A stretch of DNA of 36,636 nt from Candidatus Bathyarchaeum sp. (GTDB lineage: Archaea; Thermoproteota; Bathyarchaeia; Bathyarchaeales; Bathyarchaeaceae), in assembly GCA_016930555.1 (NCBI GenBank), contig JAFGGM010000035.1:1-36636 (forward strand). Reading direction: 5' to 3'. Below are positions 8,373 through 24,819 of this stretch, piece after piece. A model generated the notes under the pieces. The model ran no database searches, was not told the origin of the DNA, and worked only from the letters and a program-made list of their open reading frames with translations. Position numbers and translations under genes: made by a program. Every line of letters starts with the position of its first letter. The stretch's first letter is position 1.

Positions 8373-11300
8373 CTAAGATGCTGTTTCAGTTTTTTTGTTT
8401 CGCTTTTTCTTTAATACAACAACTGCTGCCAACAAAACTATTGCTGATACAATTGCCACATAAAGTATGGTGTTTGCGACGTGAATGTTCGTTGAGATCA
8501 GAGTGGCTTGCTCAAAGTCTGGAGTATCCACCTCAACAAGTAGATTCTGGAATGACCCCCAGTAATTCAGTTCACACGCGTATACGCCCTCTTCGATCTG
8601 ATTGCATGTTCTTCCATTCACTATGACTGTTGCGTCGACCACAGGATTCATTGTGTAATCGTAGGCAACTTGAACTCTTGTGTTAGTTACTCCCAAGGAG
8701 TTGGTCTCAAATTCGGTCTTTCTTATCTCAATTTTGTCCCAAGTCACGTCTACACTCATGTCTTGATTGTTTATGGCATTAAGCCCAAAACGTTCATCCT
8801 CAACTGATGACGCTTCATACACTTGGGAACCAAGGGCATCTGCTGTTGCAGTATACTCCCATCTTGAGTGGCTACTGGACCATGTCATGGGTTTGTTATC
8901 AAGGAAAATTGTTCCCGCCACTTCGTTGAAGACTTTAGAATCGTATTCATACTCGGCGGTCAGCCACAGAGTCTTTGATGAATCTGCCTCAACAACAGAA
9001 TCAATTACGCTACGATCTGTGATTTTAATCCTGTCCCAGATTATGGATGGGTCAATGATGGATTTTGCATAATCGGTTATATCCTCGTATTCTACGCCTG
9101 TAACATTCCAGACACGGATGCCAACACCGTCATAAGTAACGTCAAAAGTCGCCCACCCTGTTTGGTTTGCCAAGTATTCGACCCCATTAACTTCAACGGC
9201 TGCACCTTCAATATCGGTATGGTTGCACATCCACTGAACATGAAAGCCAACAGTCTGGACACTACCGACATCAACCCGTGAATCACTAATATACAGGACA
9301 TCTACTTCAATCTGCTTGAAGCCGAAAACGAGCTCAAGAGGTTCGTTTGATAGCAGAAAAGTGGCGGACAGAATGCCCGTTGAGGTATCATAGCTCCATG
9401 TTGACTTCTCGCTTCCATCAACCATAAAGTAATAGGGCACGGCTCCTCCAGTCTGCAGCTGTATAGAGGCTTTTTGTCCCCCAGAGCCGTTAGCAAAAAC
9501 ATTGAGGGTTCCTCGGGTTTCATTCCATGAAACATCAGTTAAGGGAACAGAAGATTGGGTCACATACACGTCAGTTGTGTTTTCCCACCCAGCAGTAAAG
9601 TTTGAGGCGGAAACGAAAGTCAAAACTTTGTTTTTTGGGTTATAGCTTTGTGTTAAGTTGAATTGGGTTCCAAGGATATAGCTGGGGCGGTCAAATTCTG
9701 CGCAATAAATCTTGGTTATATTTGTTGCTTGTTCAATCCCATTAAGGAAAACTGTGAAACGGCTGTCATTTAAGCTTGGATTGTCAGTTAAAATAGCGTC
9801 CGAGGATAACACTCTGGGTGCATCATCATTTTCTAGGAGTAGGAAAAGTTTTGCTTCATCTGGCGCCAAGGTTACTTCAAGAGGAACAGTGATTGTTTCA
9901 GTGACCCAATAGAAGTCGTTATGGATGTACTCAAAAATTATATAATTTTTGTTAATGTTCAAAGTGGTATCCAAAGCCCTGACGTAATACGTGAGAGTTT
10001 CAGTGCTCGTGGAGTTGTCATGGAGAAGGTAGACGGCTCTGTCAGCCTGTCCCTGATTCAGCCAATATTCTTCTTCAGGATACGGCACATAAACCATGGG
10101 TCTCACGTAATATGCGCAAAGGAAATGAATGAACTCTGTTAGAACATCAGTCAAAACGCCATGCGGCAGAGATTTAGGGTTACGTGTGTTGACAATGTAG
10201 GTGTATCCTGAACCTTTCTTGTTCTCAATAATGAAGGCATTATGCTCGGTTTGGATGTTGTTAACCCAAGCTAGTACCTTTGTGTTTTCGCTATGAGATA
10301 GTTCATACTTGAATTTCCAGAACCATGAGCCTAGTTCCTCAGAGCCTGAGTAAGTGTAGGTTATTCCTTCCCATGGATACCAGAAAGTGTCTTCAGTGAA
10401 AGTGACGTTGTGCAGGTACATGTCAGCCGTTATTTCCCCTTGACTTGCTTCAGGGGGACTCACGTTAACCCCAAACAGGGAAGCATAGCTCTTGGTCCAA
10501 GCATAAGCGTCCTCAAGGTCGTCTACAGCGTTGTTGCCATGGGTAAATGTTAGCAATGAGAAAAAGATTCCGCCATTCTCAACATAATCTTCAAGGTTAC
10601 CAGCAATTGTATCGTTTATCAGGCTCCAACCCAAGCCAACAATCAGTTTATACTGCTTTAGCACAGATGGGGGCGCATAAACGGAGATGATATCTACCAT
10701 CCCAAAGGGTAACCCAGTGAACTCCTTTCCAGTTAAGGCACCACCAATCTGCCAATTGTCACCTATTCCCGGAAAGAAAAGATTCAGAAGTTCATAATCA
10801 AAGTCTCCCTGCCTGTCTGTCTGGTCCCAGAATCCCCAGTTGGGTCCTCGACTGCTCCATCCGCTCTGCCCAATCATCACTGCAATAGATGAACTGTAAT
10901 CTGGCTGCTCGTATCCCAGCTTTTCCCCATTCTGCAAAAATGTATAGAATCTCTGAATTGCTCGTCCAAACTCAGTTAGATTGCCCTCCTCGTCCAGAAT
11001 GATGTATTTGTTGTCCCAACCTGTGCGGTTAAGTGTTCCAAAAAAATTGCCCTGCTCAAAGAAGAAGTATTTTGCTCCATAAAACCAGGCTTCATAAAGC
11101 GCCCGCTCTACGTCGCTTCCCGTGAAATCTGCTGGAGGAACTTCCCACTCTCTCCAAGTGTCTACAAATAGTCCCCAAGCAGGAATATTGTAAGTTTTTT
11201 GCATTCCTCGGGCTAAGCCAATCATCAACTCTGTGTTTGGGGCATTGAAAACCTTGCTTAAAAAAACGTCACAATTAGATGTGTTTGCTGCTGCATAACC

Positions 11301-11879
11301 AATAACGTTTTCTTGAAGAAATATTCTGGCGCCCTTAGCCTTGAATTCTGCCAACTGCATTCTAGAGATTATAGTCTCGACTAATGCTTCTTCTGCCTGA
11401 AGCCTTGTGCTGATGGTTCCAGTTGAGTTGTCTACCCACATACTCATGTCGGACTGTTTTCCTGTGATTTCTGCAACCATTATTCCTAGAAGATGTGGAT
11501 ATTTTGCTTGCCATTTAGCGAACTGGTCAGGAGAGATTCGTATTTCATGGTCTGAAAAATTGAAGGGTTCAAACATGGTGTAGATTCCCAGACTTTCAGC
11601 CACACTTATTGCCTCTTCAACCAGAGTTAGGTCCCATCCTTGGTCCATGGGATGAAGAATCGCTAAGTTGCCGAGCTGAAGTTCTTTCATTGTTCTTATG
11701 CTGTTCAAGATTTGTTCTTGCTCGCTTTCGAGGATCAGCATTCCCATGAAATAGTTAGGGTCTGTATCAAAGGTTTCAGGCTGCAGAGACTTAGAGGAGG
11801 CAGATGTGAAGGAGACGGTGAGAAGAATAGCTGAAACAAAGAGGACCAATAGCTTAGATGTTCTGCCATATTGTTTCAT
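8373..11879 (-). CDS. Large secreted/cell-surface multidomain protein; possible TIM-barrel glycoside hydrolase-like N-terminus with Ig-like repeats and C-terminal TM anchor
   Basis: Signal peptide at N-term (MKQYGRTSKLLVLFVSAILLTVSFTSASS); many NxS/T sequons; C-terminal TM 'ILYVAIVSAIVLLAAVVVLKKKRNKK'. Confidence 0.8.
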   Translation of the reverse strand: MKQYGRTSKLLVLFVSAILLTVSFTSASSKSLQPETFDTDPNYFMGMLILESEQEQILNSIRTMKELQLGNLAILHPMDQGWDLTLVEEAISVAESLGIYTMFEPFNFSDHEIRISPDQFAKWQAKYPHLLGIMVAEITGKQSDMSMWVDNSTGTISTRLQAEEALVETIISRMQLAEFKAKGARIFLQENVIGYAAANTSNCDVFLSKVFNAPNTELMIGLARGMQKTYNIPAWGLFVDTWREWEVPPADFTGSDVERALYEAWFYGAKYFFFEQGNFFGTLNRTGWDNKYIILDEEGNLTEFGRAIQRFYTFLQNGEKLGYEQPDYSSSIAVMIGQSGWSSRGPNWGFWDQTDRQGDFDYELLNLFFPGIGDNWQIGGALTGKEFTGLPFGMVDIISVYAPPSVLKQYKLIVGLGWSLINDTIAGNLEDYVENGGIFFSLLTFTHGNNAVDDLEDAYAWTKSYASLFGVNVSPPEASQGEITADMYLHNVTFTEDTFWYPWEGITYTYSGSEELGSWFWKFKYELSHSENTKVLAWVNNIQTEHNAFIIENKKGSGYTYIVNTRNPKSLPHGVLTDVLTEFIHFLCAYYVRPMVYVPYPEEEYWLNQGQADRAVYLLHDNSTSTETLTYYVRALDTTLNINKNYIIFEYIHNDFYWVTETITVPLEVTLAPDEAKLFLLLENDDAPRVLSSDAILTDNPSLNDSRFTVFLNGIEQATNITKIYCAEFDRPSYILGTQFNLTQSYNPKNKVLTFVSASNFTAGWENTTDVYVTQSSVPLTDVSWNETRGTLNVFANGSGGQKASIQLQTGGAVPYYFMVDGSEKSTWSYDTSTGILSATFLLSNEPLELVFGFKQIEVDVLYISDSRVDVGSVQTVGFHVQWMCNHTDIEGAAVEVNGVEYLANQTGWATFDVTYDGVGIRVWNVTGVEYEDITDYAKSIIDPSIIWDRIKITDRSVIDSVVEADSSKTLWLTAEYEYDSKVFNEVAGTIFLDNKPMTWSSSHSRWEYTATADALGSQVYEASSVEDERFGLNAINNQDMSVDVTWDKIEIRKTEFETNSLGVTNTRVQVAYDYTMNPVVDATVIVNGRTCNQIEEGVYACELNYWGSFQNLLVEVDTPDFEQATLISTNIHVANTILYVAIVSAIVLLAAVVVLKKKRNKKTETAS

Positions 11880-12815: not shown

Positions 12816-13373
12816 TCAGCTTTCTGTTCCTAACAGAAGGTCGACTAGAGCTTTCTGGTCAACCTCTGCCCGTGTTCTCCAGTCCAAGTAAAGCATGTTG
12901 TTTTCGTCCTCAGCCAAGTATCCAGCCCTGATGTAGCGGTTAAGGTTCATGTCAACTCTCCATCCTGGCAATTTACTACGAAGCAAATCACCCACTTGCT
13001 CGCGGGGAGCCTTTCCCTTTTTGGAGATTACGTAGGAGATAGCAGTAGCCAAACCAGCAATATCGTCGATTCGCCAGCCCATCATCTTAGAATCCTTAGA
13101 CGGCAAACCGCCCCTGAGAGTGACAAAAAATCTTGCCTTGTTAAGCTCTTCAACAGTGGGTTTCTCTTTGGGTTCTTCGCCTTCAAAAACTGTTTTCACC
13201 TGCAGGTCCAGCTTCTCAAGATGGTCATCCAGAACCTTGAGGATTTTTGGGTAATCGGAACCCAGTGCGTTCTTTAGTTCCCATCCCTTCACGCCAGGCT
13301 TCATGTGCCTTTTGTAGAATAGTAGCTGTGCTGCTCTCTTGATTTTTAGTGCATAGTAAGCTTTTCGTTTCAT
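12816..13373 (-). CDS. KITE-family tandem winged-helix protein resembling MAGE/Nse3
   Basis: ORF to 13403; the internal ATG at 13373 overlaps the upstream stop (ATGA). 'AQLLFYKRHMKPGVKGWELKNALGSDYPKILKVLDDHLEKLDLQVKTV...ARFFVTLRGG...GLATAISYVISKKGKAPREQVGDLL...YIRAGYLAEDENNMLYLDWRTRAEVD' follows the order of MAGE homology domain motifs, including a counterpart of the terminal 'YEFLWGPRAxxE'. Confidence 0.7.
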   Translation of the reverse strand: MKRKAYYALKIKRAAQLLFYKRHMKPGVKGWELKNALGSDYPKILKVLDDHLEKLDLQVKTVFEGEEPKEKPTVEELNKARFFVTLRGGLPSKDSKMMGWRIDDIAGLATAISYVISKKGKAPREQVGDLLRSKLPGWRVDMNLNRYIRAGYLAEDENNMLYLDWRTRAEVDQKALVDLLLGTES

Positions 13374-14182
13374 GTTTGGTTCTCCTCTTTCCAGCGTATC
13401 CAATCTTCGTGGCTTACTGAGATAGGAACAGAAACCATTTGCTTGTCAGACAGCCCTGATCGGGGTTCTTTGAGGGGTATGATGAAAATTTCTTCTTCTA
13501 GGGGGTCTAGCTTTAGTGTTGCGTAACCGTATGTTACAAGAAAGCTTGTCATGTAAGCATTGTCTAATGTTTCGGAGTAGGTGTCGGCGCCAACAAAGTC
13601 CCAGTAAAGAATTTTTTCGTTTTTGCCCACCTTCTGCTTCAGTGTCTGCCAGAAGGCTTCCAATTCCTCAAAAAAGGTTTTTTCAGCCAAAATCTTTTGT
13701 CTAATCAGTTCTTCACGGGTTGTGGCTCCAGTCATTACCGCTGTGGGATCAAGTCTTTGCCATCTTTCATCGATGGGAGGAAGGTCGTTCCAGTATTTCA
13801 TAGCTTCAGCTATGCTTGGGATTGAAAGCTGTTCCAGTTCGATGATTGGGTTCCATACTTTTGTGAAAAGCGTGACGAGCCCTTCTTTGTCTAGTCTTTG
13901 AAGTTTTTCTTCAATCAGGAAAGGGTCAGTGTAAAGAGAGGTGGAGCGGTGTTTCACCCAGTCCCCTTGGTTTTGTATAACTGACGCAAGGTACTGGACA
14001 GCTTCTGCGTCCAGAGCCAGTTCTTCTGGCGATTCCCAATCACTGAAACATTTCTTGAGAGTGGCTATTATGTGGTCAACGTCCACAGCAAATGGGTCAA
14101 CTCCCTTATCTTCAACAGATTTGCATAATTCGATGACACGTTGAAGGCGTTCACTACTATGTTTCTTTTCTTGTGCGGACAA
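13370..14182 (-). CDS. Kleisin-like protein resembling Nse4
   Basis: TTG start abutting the SMC stop. N-terminal 'LALDAEAVQYLASVIQNQGDWVKHRSTSLYTDPFLIEEKL' and C-terminal 'ILYWDFVGADTYSETLDNAYMTSFLVTYGYATLKLDPLEEEIFIIPLKEP' resemble the Nse4 N- and C-terminal domains as recalled. Confidence 0.7.
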   Translation of the reverse strand: MSAQEKKHSSERLQRVIELCKSVEDKGVDPFAVDVDHIIATLKKCFSDWESPEELALDAEAVQYLASVIQNQGDWVKHRSTSLYTDPFLIEEKLQRLDKEGLVTLFTKVWNPIIELEQLSIPSIAEAMKYWNDLPPIDERWQRLDPTAVMTGATTREELIRQKILAEKTFFEELEAFWQTLKQKVGKNEKILYWDFVGADTYSETLDNAYMTSFLVTYGYATLKLDPLEEEIFIIPLKEPRSGLSDKQMVSVPISVSHEDWIRWKEENQT

Positions 14183-16228
14183 TTATGTTACCTCTTTAAT
14201 GAGCGAAACCCCTTCAACGTTCTGGACAGTTATTAAGTGAACGTCCTTTCCTGTGAAGGTGAGCTGGCTGGGAGTAATAGCTAAGTATTGGGTGTCTAAC
14301 CCGGTGACTGAAGAAACAATGAGGTTAGCGATGATTTCCCTGTTTTTTGGGTCCATGTGAACGTCGTATTCGTCAACTGCACGGAAGGGAGAGTGAACAT
14401 GCTGCTGTAGCGCAAGAAGGAAAGTTATGGTGGCGGTGCTTCTTTCTCCTCCACTTTGGGTGTAAGAGTTAAGGGGAACAGGGTTTCCTCCCTTGAAACC
14501 CACAAAAATTTCGAGACCAGCATCTTCTATGTCAACCTCGCTTGTCAGCTTAACTTCCCCGACGGCGTAGGCTTGAGCGAGAATCTTCCTGTATTTGGTG
14601 TTAACTTGGTCTAGAAGCTTGTGGATAATTTTGCGCCACGCATCCATTCGAGTGTTTACTTCTTCTAGGGCTTTTTCGCGGTTTTGTGCAACCAAACAGG
14701 CTTTCTCTTTGAGTTCTAGGTACAGTTTGGAGTAGGATTCGTACATTCGTTCTATATCTTCAGAAACGTCTGCAAGGGCAGCTAAGTGACCGTCAGTTAC
14801 TCGGAGTTCCTCAAGAATGTCCATTGTGTTTTTCATTGGCACTAGTCTTTGCCCTACCGACTCAGCCCTTTTCACATACTCATTTAAGTCAACGATGGCC
14901 TGCTGAAGCTCCTTTTCTAAACGTTTCATGGTTCTGGTGAGGCTTTCCCTTTGATAATTCAACAACGCTAAACTAATCTTATTGTCCAGAATTTGGTTGG
15001 TGGCTGCTTCGATTTCCATGTCAACAGAATCTGTCCTAGCTTTGATGCCTGAAATCTGATTACTCAAAATTGTTAGTTGTTCTTTTGAGGTTTCGGCGGA
15101 TTTTTGTAGGCTTGCATTTCGTATATTGAAGCGTTGGGTCCAAGCATCCTGTAGACTGTCGTAGCTTGCCTTGATTTCAGCAAGTTGTGTTGTGAGGTCT
15201 ATGGGGTTTGTTTTTTCTCCGAGGACAGTTTCAAGAGATTTGATGTTGTCTAAGACGTTCTCCATTTCTCTGTGGTGATTGGATGCCCACGATTTTATCT
15301 CTTTTATTGCATAGTCGGCAGTTAGAGCGGCTAATTCAAGTTTAGCTCTTTCCCGTTCCAGCACAAGACAGTCCTCAAAGAGGTTCCTCAACGCAGTTTT
15401 TGACGTTTGAAGCCTACTCTGAAGCAAACTTATTTGACCATTTGTTGTTCCAGTTTCTCTTTCGATTTTTGTCAGCTTGTTCTGGTGCTCCTGAATATGT
15501 TCTTTAAGCTTAGCAACAACTCTTTCCCTTTTCAGCACTTCAGCCCATGCCAACTCCCGTTCAAGAAACCGTCTTTTTAGACGCAACTGCTTCTTCTGCT
15601 GGTACCTGTCATACTGTTCTCGCCAGTAAGAGAGGGTTTGCTCGGCAGACTCCAGAAGTTTCCCAACAGAGTCTCCTTGGCTTAGTATACGGCTCAACTT
15701 CTTTTGAGCCATCACGACATTTTTACGGTAAGATTCAAAGCCAACAGCCGCCTCAACCATTCTCAGTTTCTCTTGAGTTGAAAGCACAGTGAATTGCTCA
15801 ACCATGTTCTGCTGCATGATAATGAGCATGTTGTCGGGGTCAACTTCAAATTTGGCGAGAAGCCTGTTAACTTCTACCTTGTTTGCGGCGCTGTTCTCCA
15901 ACTCGAACCAATATTTGCCGTCCCGCCTCAATCCTCGGGTCAAAAAGATTTGGTCTTTTCTTATTTTTTGAACTGGACGCCGTCCATCCCGTGGCGAATT
16001 GTCCAGAATTAGAGTGACTCGTGCTTCGTCTTTTCCCCGTCTAATCAAGTCGCTTAGGCGCTTGGAGCGTTCAGTAGAGGACTGCCCGAGTGCCACTGAG
16101 ATTCCTATGAGGATTGTTGATTTGCCTGCGCCATTTGGACCGCAGACTACGTTGACGCCCTTCGTGAAGGGTATCCGCGCATACTCATAGGACATGAAGT
16201 TTTCCAAGATAACTTCTCGAATCAGCAC
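14183..16228 (-). CDS. Short SMC-family ATPase, Smc5/Smc6-like
   Basis: Walker A GPNGAGKST (16115-16141), SMC signature 'TQSGGERSTATITFLLALQQ', Walker B region 'HSPFRAVDEYDVHMDPKNREII' and 'TQYLAITPSQL'; two long coiled-coil segments between head halves. Confidence 0.93.
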   Translation of the reverse strand: MLIREVILENFMSYEYARIPFTKGVNVVCGPNGAGKSTILIGISVALGQSSTERSKRLSDLIRRGKDEARVTLILDNSPRDGRRPVQKIRKDQIFLTRGLRRDGKYWFELENSAANKVEVNRLLAKFEVDPDNMLIIMQQNMVEQFTVLSTQEKLRMVEAAVGFESYRKNVVMAQKKLSRILSQGDSVGKLLESAEQTLSYWREQYDRYQQKKQLRLKRRFLERELAWAEVLKRERVVAKLKEHIQEHQNKLTKIERETGTTNGQISLLQSRLQTSKTALRNLFEDCLVLERERAKLELAALTADYAIKEIKSWASNHHREMENVLDNIKSLETVLGEKTNPIDLTTQLAEIKASYDSLQDAWTQRFNIRNASLQKSAETSKEQLTILSNQISGIKARTDSVDMEIEAATNQILDNKISLALLNYQRESLTRTMKRLEKELQQAIVDLNEYVKRAESVGQRLVPMKNTMDILEELRVTDGHLAALADVSEDIERMYESYSKLYLELKEKACLVAQNREKALEEVNTRMDAWRKIIHKLLDQVNTKYRKILAQAYAVGEVKLTSEVDIEDAGLEIFVGFKGGNPVPLNSYTQSGGERSTATITFLLALQQHVHSPFRAVDEYDVHMDPKNREIIANLIVSSVTGLDTQYLAITPSQLTFTGKDVHLITVQNVEGVSLIKEVT

Positions 16229-22429: not shown

Positions 22430-23581
22430 ATGGAAAGAAGATTGGATATGTCCTTGAAATTGATTGTCGTGAAGGTTGGAACCGGAAGTCTAACCAAAAA
22501 CGGTGGAACCCTCGACACGGAACTGATGCAAAAACTGGTTGACCAGATAGCGGAGGCCATAAAGCAGGGCAACAAAATCGTTTTCGTCACCAGCGGAGCT
22601 GTAGCCGCAGGCATATCCGAGCTTGGGATTCCCCCTAAACCTAACGACATCGTCTTCCAGCAGGTTTCAGCCGCAACAGGACAAAGCATAATCATGTCCA
22701 CGTACCGTGAACTCTTTAAGAAGCATGGACTAAAAGTTGCTCAAATCCTTTTGACTGCAGAAGATCTCTCGAACCGAGCTGCCTATCTGCATATATGTGA
22801 TGTTTTGGAGATGACTCTGCAGCTGGGCATTGTTCCCATCATCAACGAGAACGACGTAACATCCACTGAAGAGCTGATTCCCATCACGAAAGGATACAAA
22901 GTGAACTTCAGCGACAACGACATCCTGTCTGTCCTCGTAGCCAACGCCCTAGAAGCAAACCTTGTCATCATATTATCCAACGTAGACGGATTATACACAA
23001 TGAACCCAAAAAAGCGGGACGCAAAACTAATCAAAACAGTTGAAGCGATCACGCCAGAACTTAAATGTGAAGTGGAAGGCAAAAGCCGCCTCGGTAGAGG
23101 AGGCATGAAAACAAAACTGAAAGCCGCAGAAATCGCCACCTCCAGTGGCGTACCCCTAGTAATAGCCAACAGCCAACACGAAAACGTGATACTTGATATA
23201 CTTGCAGGAAAACAGGTAGGAACCATATTCAAGCCCCAGAAGCGGCTGCCTCAAATAAAACGGTGGATAGCTTACGGTGCCTCAGTAAAGGGACAGATTG
23301 TCTTGAATGAGGGCGCAAAAAAAGCGATACTGAAGGGCGCCAGCCTTCTTCCCGTTGGCGTAGTCGAACTCACAGGAACCTTCAATGAAGGAGATGTAAT
23401 CAGCCTCGTGAATCAGGATGGAGTAGAGTTCGCTAAGGGCAACCCCAACTATAACAGCGGCGAAATAAACATCATTAAAGGGCTGAAAACAAACCAAATC
23501 AAAAAAGCCCTCGGCTACATAAGATGCAAAGAAATTATTGCTCGAAAAAACATACACATAACAGAATGTGAAAAAAGATGA
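22430..23581 (+). CDS. proB: Glutamate 5-kinase with C-terminal PUA domain
   Basis: 'IVVKVGTGSLTKNGG', 'VTSGAVAAGISELG', 'IINENDVTSTEE...FSDNDILSVLVANALEANLVIILSNVDGLY', PUA region at C-term. Confidence 0.95.
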   Translation: MERRLDMSLKLIVVKVGTGSLTKNGGTLDTELMQKLVDQIAEAIKQGNKIVFVTSGAVAAGISELGIPPKPNDIVFQQVSAATGQSIIMSTYRELFKKHGLKVAQILLTAEDLSNRAAYLHICDVLEMTLQLGIVPIINENDVTSTEELIPITKGYKVNFSDNDILSVLVANALEANLVIILSNVDGLYTMNPKKRDAKLIKTVEAITPELKCEVEGKSRLGRGGMKTKLKAAEIATSSGVPLVIANSQHENVILDILAGKQVGTIFKPQKRLPQIKRWIAYGASVKGQIVLNEGAKKAILKGASLLPVGVVELTGTFNEGDVISLVNQDGVEFAKGNPNYNSGEINIIKGLKTNQIKKALGYIRCKEIIARKNIHITECEKR

Positions 23582-24819
23582 TAGAAGAAATCTGCAAAAA
23601 AGCAAAAGCCGCCTCATCACAGCTGGCACAAACTTCCACAGAACAAAGAAATAATGCACTATGCAAGATGGCAGACTCTCTTGAAAGAAACTGCACCAAA
23701 ATTCTGGAGGCAAACCAGAAGGATGTCAAAGCTGCCCGAGTCCGCGGCGTAAAAGAGGCGCTGATTGATAGGCTGATTCTGGACAAGCGCCGAGTAATCA
23801 GCATGGCATCTACCCTACGGGAAGTGGCTGAGATGCGTGATCCCCTTAACGAAATCGTGAAGACATGGACAAGACCTAACGGCTTAATCATTGGTCAGCT
23901 TCGTGTGCCTCTTGGCGTAATCGGAATCATCTACGAGTCTAGACCCGACGTAACCTCAGAAGCGTCTGGCTTGTGCATAAAATCTGGAAATGCCATAATC
24001 TTGAGGGGGGGCTCAGATGCCATAAACTCGAACATGGCCATAGGTAACGCGTTACGTGCAGCGCTGGAAGAGGTAGGATTAACGAAGGATATTATACAGG
24101 TTGTTCCCGTAACCGACCGAATTTATGCTGAGCAGCTCATGAGTATGCGGGACTACATTGATGTGCTGATTCCCCGTGGAGGAGCCAATCTGATAAAGAC
24201 TGTGGTGGAGAAGTCTATGGTTCCTGTTATCGAAACGGGAACAGGAAACTGTCACATCTACGTGGAAGAGGATGCTGACTTAACCCGTGCGGCGGACATA
24301 ATAATAAATGCTAAATGCCAGAGACCTGGTACATGCAACGCTGAAGAGAAACTTTTGGTTCACAAGAACATTGCAGAACAGTATCTGCCCACTATAGTTG
24401 AGGCCCTCATCAAAAATGGAGTTGAAGTTAGAGGCTGTAAAAGAACAGTCAAGATAGTTCCGAAGGTGAAACCCGCCGTCGAAGAGGACTGGGGAACCGA
24501 ATATCTTGACCTAATCATCGGCATAAAGGTGGTTGAAGGCATAGACGAGGCAATCGCCCACATAAACAATTACGGCACCAGGCACTCTGAATCGATACTG
24601 ACAGCCGACTTCAATAAGGCACTGAAGTTCATCCGCGAAGTTGATGCCGCGGCAGTTTATTGGAATGCTTCTACTCGCTTCACCGACGGTAACCAGTTCG
24701 GATTAGGAGCAGAGATTGGAATAAGCACCCAGAAGCTCCATGCAAGAGGACCCATGAGCGCCCAGCATCTGACAACAACAAAATTCTTCATCCTAGGCAG
24801 AGGGCACGTCAGACCATAA
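23578..24819 (+). CDS. proA: Gamma-glutamyl phosphate reductase
   Basis: 'RVPLGVIGIIYESRPDVTSEASGLCIKSGNAIILRGGSDA', 'IETGTGNCHIYV'; ATGA overlap with proB. Confidence 0.96.
   Translation: MIEEICKKAKAASSQLAQTSTEQRNNALCKMADSLERNCTKILEANQKDVKAARVRGVKEALIDRLILDKRRVISMASTLREVAEMRDPLNEIVKTWTRPNGLIIGQLRVPLGVIGIIYESRPDVTSEASGLCIKSGNAIILRGGSDAINSNMAIGNALRAALEEVGLTKDIIQVVPVTDRIYAEQLMSMRDYIDVLIPRGGANLIKTVVEKSMVPVIETGTGNCHIYVEEDADLTRAADIIINAKCQRPGTCNAEEKLLVHKNIAEQYLPTIVEALIKNGVEVRGCKRTVKIVPKVKPAVEEDWGTEYLDLIIGIKVVEGIDEAIAHINNYGTRHSESILTADFNKALKFIREVDAAAVYWNASTRFTDGNQFGLGAEIGISTQKLHARGPMSAQHLTTTKFFILGRGHVRP

Follow-up and report, generated by a model that had tools for sequence, protein, structure and literature searches.

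The window, by which we mean the whole stretch of 36,636 nucleotides analysed here, is contig 36 of a draft genome of 1.14 Mb. It carries a gene for a short SMC ATPase, followed directly by two smaller genes whose products we assign to a kleisin and a KITE subunit (Table 1). A first-pass annotation had placed a short SMC ATPase at this position without giving a strand. Indeed, the gene is one exact open reading frame. The same annotation overlooked the two genes directly downstream, which suggest that the SMC is one of the subunits of a ternary complex. The nearest named relative of the SMC protein comes from a Candidatus Bathyarchaeum and is 81% identical. A canonical SMC protein of 1182 amino acids is encoded in the same genome as well. 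Canonical SMC proteins of Bathyarchaeia (L140:833-4378 and L141:2607-6152) have the ABC signature ASSGERS instead of LSGGE. Elsewhere in the window, positions 8373-11879 encode a protein of 1168 amino acids that is apparently secreted and membrane-anchored and that gave only a weak match to a glycosidase trimerisation domain. Positions 22430-24819 hold a glutamate 5-kinase-like gene with a PUA domain and then an aldehyde dehydrogenase-family gene, a proBA-like proline pathway pair.

Table 1. Genes and protein features of the SMC locus, in coordinates of the window.
Feature	Coordinates	Strand	Remarks
Short SMC ATPase with Smc5/6-type heads and no hinge	14183..16228	-	681 aa; GTG start
Head, N-terminal half (residues 1-162)	15743..16228	-	AlphaFold secondary structure; invariant residues
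Walker A motif GPNGAGKS in the N-terminal half of the head	~16118-16141	-	conserved residues
Ascending coiled-coil arm (residues 165-338)	15215..15736	-	single continuous predicted helix; AlphaFold
Apex turn KTNPIDL (residues 339-345) in place of a hinge	15194..15214	-	poorly conserved; variable in length
Descending arm (residues 346-552)	14573..15193	-	break at residues 459-467; AlphaFold
Head, C-terminal half (residues 555-681)	14183..14566	-	signature QSGGERS at ~14438-14458; Walker B/D-loop FRAVDEYDVHMD
Predicted Nse4-type kleisin	13370..14182	-	270 aa; TTG start immediately 3' of the SMC stop codon
Predicted KITE (tandem winged-helix) subunit	12816..13373	-	185 aa; ATG start and kleisin stop codon overlap (ATGA)

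A match to the Pfam family SMC_N (E 2e-32) identified the SMC protein as an SMC-type split ATPase. The Walker A lysine K36, Q140, the QSGGERS signature and the Walker B motif FRAVDEYD with D619 and E620 were invariant or nearly so among 60 homologues. Since K36, Q140, SGGER and D619/E620 are conserved throughout this set, the protein should hydrolyse ATP. An AlphaFold model, calculated from a 60-sequence alignment, reached a mean pLDDT of 84.8 and resolved into an N-terminal head (residues 3-162), one helix (165-338) that turns through a loop (339-345) into the returning arm (346-552), and a C-terminal head (555-680). In this model the two heads are joined by a plain coiled-coil hairpin with no globular hinge and no strands between N-head and C-head. 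In agreement, the SMC_hinge profile matched neither the SMC of the window nor six distant short homologues of 576-699 amino acids. As a positive control, it matched the 1182-aa canonical SMC encoded in this genome (E 1.8e-20) and the canonical SMC of a relative (E 9.9e-22). Because 95 homologues all span 576-699 amino acids, the short architecture is not an assembly artefact. A CxxC zinc hook was found in the arm of none of 96 homologues, and a CPxC hook was present in most of the Rad50 proteins drawn from the same genome set. The very short arms and the lack of a hinge and of a zinc hook, as described in the first-pass annotation, were thus borne out. That annotation had also placed the apex near GEKTNPIDL, and the modelled turn at residues 339-345 falls inside the segment it had given, GEKTNPIDLTTQL.

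It had further suggested that the protein perhaps dimerises at this apex, a proposal that the data did not support. Column entropy, low across the heads and the adjoining parts of the arms, peaked at the apex (residues 321-360, about 30% gaps); no other part of the protein is as poorly conserved or as rich in gaps. Since SMC_hinge found no match, the apex is variable and gapped, and the total length varies among homologues, we consider a hidden hinge unlikely and see no support for a conserved dimer interface at the apex. As canonical SMC possesses a hinge and Smc5/6 does too, the simplest account would be that the hinge was lost in the archaeal short-SMC lineage. One alternative accepts the identity of the complex and differs in mechanism only: the hairpin tips might meet, or another protein might join them, so that a closed ring and a short-armed loop extruder would result after all. 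Dimerisation at the tip is known for RecN and Rad50-type proteins. In a few homologues the Gly/Pro content of the tip equals that of canonical hinges and could mark a small contact site; the sequences themselves look like coiled coil interrupted by a short linker. A tip that varies so strongly, in proteins that differ in length by more than a hundred residues, argues against ring closure, as does the lack of a fourth subunit consistently encoded nearby, and we consider such a ring rather unlikely.

We next turn to the lineage of the heads. An alignment profile of the family was compared with PDB sequences and ranked human SMC6 first (1e-57), followed by yeast Smc5 (4e-51), yeast Smc6 (7e-51) and human SMC5 (1e-43); bacterial and archaeal SMC (8e-39) and Smc2 (4e-33) ranked lower. 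Fold comparison likewise placed Smc6 first. A maximum-likelihood tree was built from concatenated head halves (46 sequences, 377 columns), in which eukaryotic Smc5/6 is represented by only four sequences taken from PDB alignment fragments. The human SMC2 and SMC3 head sequences used as queries are almost identical, residue by residue, to the matching PDB chains. In this tree the short archaeal SMCs are monophyletic (support 99.4/99) and form a single clade with Smc5 and Smc6 (100/100). The sister of that clade comprises canonical SMC together with Smc2/Smc3, and Rad50 lies outside. Topology tests gave a graded picture. A placement with canonical SMC was rejected by the AU test (p 0.0125) but not by the SH test (p 0.15), and the same held for a placement with Rad50 (AU p 0.0039, SH p 0.14); SH is the more conservative of the two and rejects none of the tested groupings. 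All three orders among short archaeal SMC, Smc5 and Smc6 were accepted by AU (p 0.44, 0.57 and 0.50). Consequently, the Smc5/Smc6-type head proposed in the first-pass annotation and its grouping with Smc5 and Smc6 stood, and the outgroup position that it had raised is one of the three accepted orders. The two outcomes that it had named as counter-evidence, a modelled hinge in the middle of the protein and a position with Rad50 or ordinary SMC, were not obtained, the latter according to AU and not SH. In a library of defence systems, the best match of the window SMC (residues 375-680) was mad3 from the bacterial MADS system (E 9e-28), clearly ahead of LmuB and JetC. Bacterial Mad3 may possess an Smc5/6-like C-terminal head.

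The gene directly behind the SMC gene likely encodes an Nse4-type kleisin. The Pfam family Nse4_C was matched by 47 of 56 kleisin homologues (best E 1.8e-6), and in the relatives these matches map to the operon locus. The kleisin of the window itself gave a weak Nse4_C match (E 0.0024), which is below the Pfam cut-off. A profile of the kleisin family searched against the PDB retrieved, up to an E value of 1, only four distinct sequences, each of which is either yeast Nse4 or human EID3. For the third protein, sequence searches returned chance matches only, and no RING or MAGE family match was found. Its AlphaFold model (pLDDT 84) consists of tandem winged helices, and the best PDB folds were Nse1/MAGE-G1 and Nse1-Nse3-Nse4, followed by a JetABC subunit (8dk1_E) and ScpB. 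On the strength of this model we assign it as a KITE protein of the Nse1/Nse3 type.

The three genes behave as a unit. In nearly all of 80 Bathyarchaeia loci the SMC, kleisin and KITE genes are collinear and touch or overlap, and the exceptions partly lie at contig ends. One locus (L017, 4072-9066) has a short SMC without kleisin or KITE within 5 kb downstream, and in another (L021, 7046-9581) SMC and kleisin are separated by a gap of about 2.5 kb. Of 19 loci in further families and classes within the phylum, most had the operon too. We surveyed 400 genomes of this one phylum. All three genes were present in 155 genomes, none in 235 and a part of them in 10; taken singly, SMC and kleisin were each found in 160 genomes and KITE in 159. 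Shared ancestry inflates formal p-values for such co-occurrence. The distribution is all-or-none, as expected of one complex. Four genomes of the same genus that are 95-97% complete lack all three genes and keep the canonical SMC.

Among the neighbours of the operon no conserved fourth gene was found besides an Lhr-type helicase gene. This gene (domains WH_Lhr and DEAD_assoc; L126:5780-8677, L131:5717-8581, L137:5637-8468, L138:1002-3848 and others) lies near the operon in 10 of the 19 distant loci and in 3 Bathyarchaeia loci, often in convergent orientation; most Bathyarchaeia loci have no such neighbour. The Lhr neighbours hint at a function in DNA repair, and we read nothing further into them. 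A family of proteins of about 231 amino acids is encoded on the opposite strand near the operon in about 31 loci, and one member (L035:3436-4167) has no Pfam or NCBIfam match.

Neighbourhood and distribution also bear on the idea that the genes form a Wadjet-like (JetABC) system or another anti-plasmid or anti-phage SMC system. Such a system would have the same three kinds of subunits, the KITE fold does resemble the JetABC subunit 8dk1_E, PADLOC reports mad3 and LmuB/JetC matches for the SMC, and presence is patchy inside one genus. However, neither a JetD-like nuclease nor any other conserved fourth gene was seen in the Bathyarchaeia loci, no gene of the JetD kind was conserved among the neighbours of 99 loci, PADLOC gave no match for kleisin or KITE, the JetC match is weak beside the matches to Smc5/6, and the KITE showed no plasmid match. 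The operon is moreover kept across the order and in several classes, more like a housekeeping set, and we regard a defence system as improbable. That the protein is a stand-alone short SMC of the RecN or ASRP/coalescin kind, dimerising through the arm tip next to unrelated passenger genes, is very improbable in spite of a similar size and hairpin shape and a weak full-length match to NCBIfam ASRP: this match scores 61 bits, far short of the curated cut-off (300), a zinc hook, which most ASRPs have according to PMC9389158, is found in no homologue here, the tip is not conserved, and two partners that resemble kleisin and KITE accompany the SMC almost without exception.

In relatives, the canonical SMC gene is adjoined by its own ScpA gene, and archaeal canonical SMC complexes reportedly have no KITE subunit (PMC7055376). 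The SMC-kleisin-KITE set is therefore a second complex, distinct from the canonical one. Taken together, the computed motifs, lineage, partner identities, operon structure, co-occurrence and absence of a hinge lead us to read positions 12816-16228 as an archaeal SMC-kleisin-KITE complex whose SMC belongs to the Smc5/Smc6 lineage, has lost its hinge and would act as an ATP-gated clamp, likely in repair, and we give this reading a probability of about 0.7. The complex is probably sister to Smc5/6, and in DNA repair it probably serves as a DNA clamp driven by ATP. For the narrower claim that the hinge-free set works as a kleisin-based DNA clamp and is the prokaryotic sister of Smc5/6, we see the balance tilting slightly in favour.

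How such a complex might work can be sketched from Smc5/6 biology and from the parts found. In eukaryotes, Smc5 and Smc6 form a heterodimer. Each genome examined here has a single short SMC locus, the other full-size SMC being the canonical one, and the archaeal SMC should therefore be a homodimer. We infer a working form of two SMC proteins, one kleisin and one or more KITE subunits. In place of the hinge there would be a plain coiled-coil hairpin some 26 nm long (174 residues x 0.15 nm). Upon ATP binding the two SMC heads would engage, the kleisin would link the neck of one head with the other head's cap, and the KITE would ride on the kleisin, such that DNA could be held in a clamp above the engaged heads. 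Since no hinge shuts the far end, it would stay open unless the tips meet, and the complex would act as an ATP-gated clamp or a short-range DNA compactor instead of a closed ring. Its task would likely be DNA repair or the handling of branched DNA, alongside the separate canonical SMC complex.

Some archaeal SMC proteins are already known to cluster with SMC5 and SMC6 (Yoshinaga and Inagaki, 2021, as described in PMC9389158; see also PMC10003631). These "SMC5/6-related" proteins very probably are the family of the window SMC or one that overlaps with it. We found no description of the hinge loss or of the Nse4 and KITE partners in the literature searched, which did not cover Yoshinaga and Inagaki (2021) or van Hooff et al. 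(2024; 10.1101/2024.01.07.573240). Both features hence appear to be new, and the paper of 2021 and the preprint of 2024, which treats the evolution of SMC complexes, may overlap with them.

A natural and widespread SMC complex with kleisin and KITE but without a hinge would allow a direct test of which SMC activities depend on the hinge. To our knowledge, every kleisin-bearing SMC complex characterised so far dimerises through its hinge, and ring and loop-extrusion models depend on it. If our reading is true, SMC complexes can function without a closed hinge ring. The set would also offer an Smc5/6 relative with one SMC, one kleisin and one KITE that can be expressed in E. coli. Finding the Smc5/6 partner set in archaea bears on the origin and age of the least understood eukaryotic SMC complex and, if true, the Smc5/6-Nse4-Nse1/3 module predates eukaryotes.

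Compared with known systems, the SMC of the window shares with ASRP, coalescin and Sph proteins that they too are short archaeal SMC-like ATPases, of about 600 amino acids. For ASRPs, PMC9389158 reports a zinc hook, a separate clade and no consensus neighbours. The canonical archaeal Smc-ScpA complex likewise combines an SMC with a kleisin, but its SMC has about 1180 amino acids and a hinge and is encoded by a separate gene of the same genome. Wadjet JetABC(D) is also an SMC-kleisin-KITE set, yet its JetD nuclease is absent here. JetC has a hinge and long arms. The Smc5/6 complex uses two SMC genes and two KITE genes, whereas the archaeal set has one each, and no genes for Nse2, Nse5 or Nse6 were seen among the conserved neighbours of the archaeal operon. 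Compared to Smc5/6, the archaeal SMC has no hinge and much shorter arms; common to both are SMC heads of the same lineage and, as predicted here, an Nse4-type kleisin and a KITE of the Nse1/Nse3 fold.
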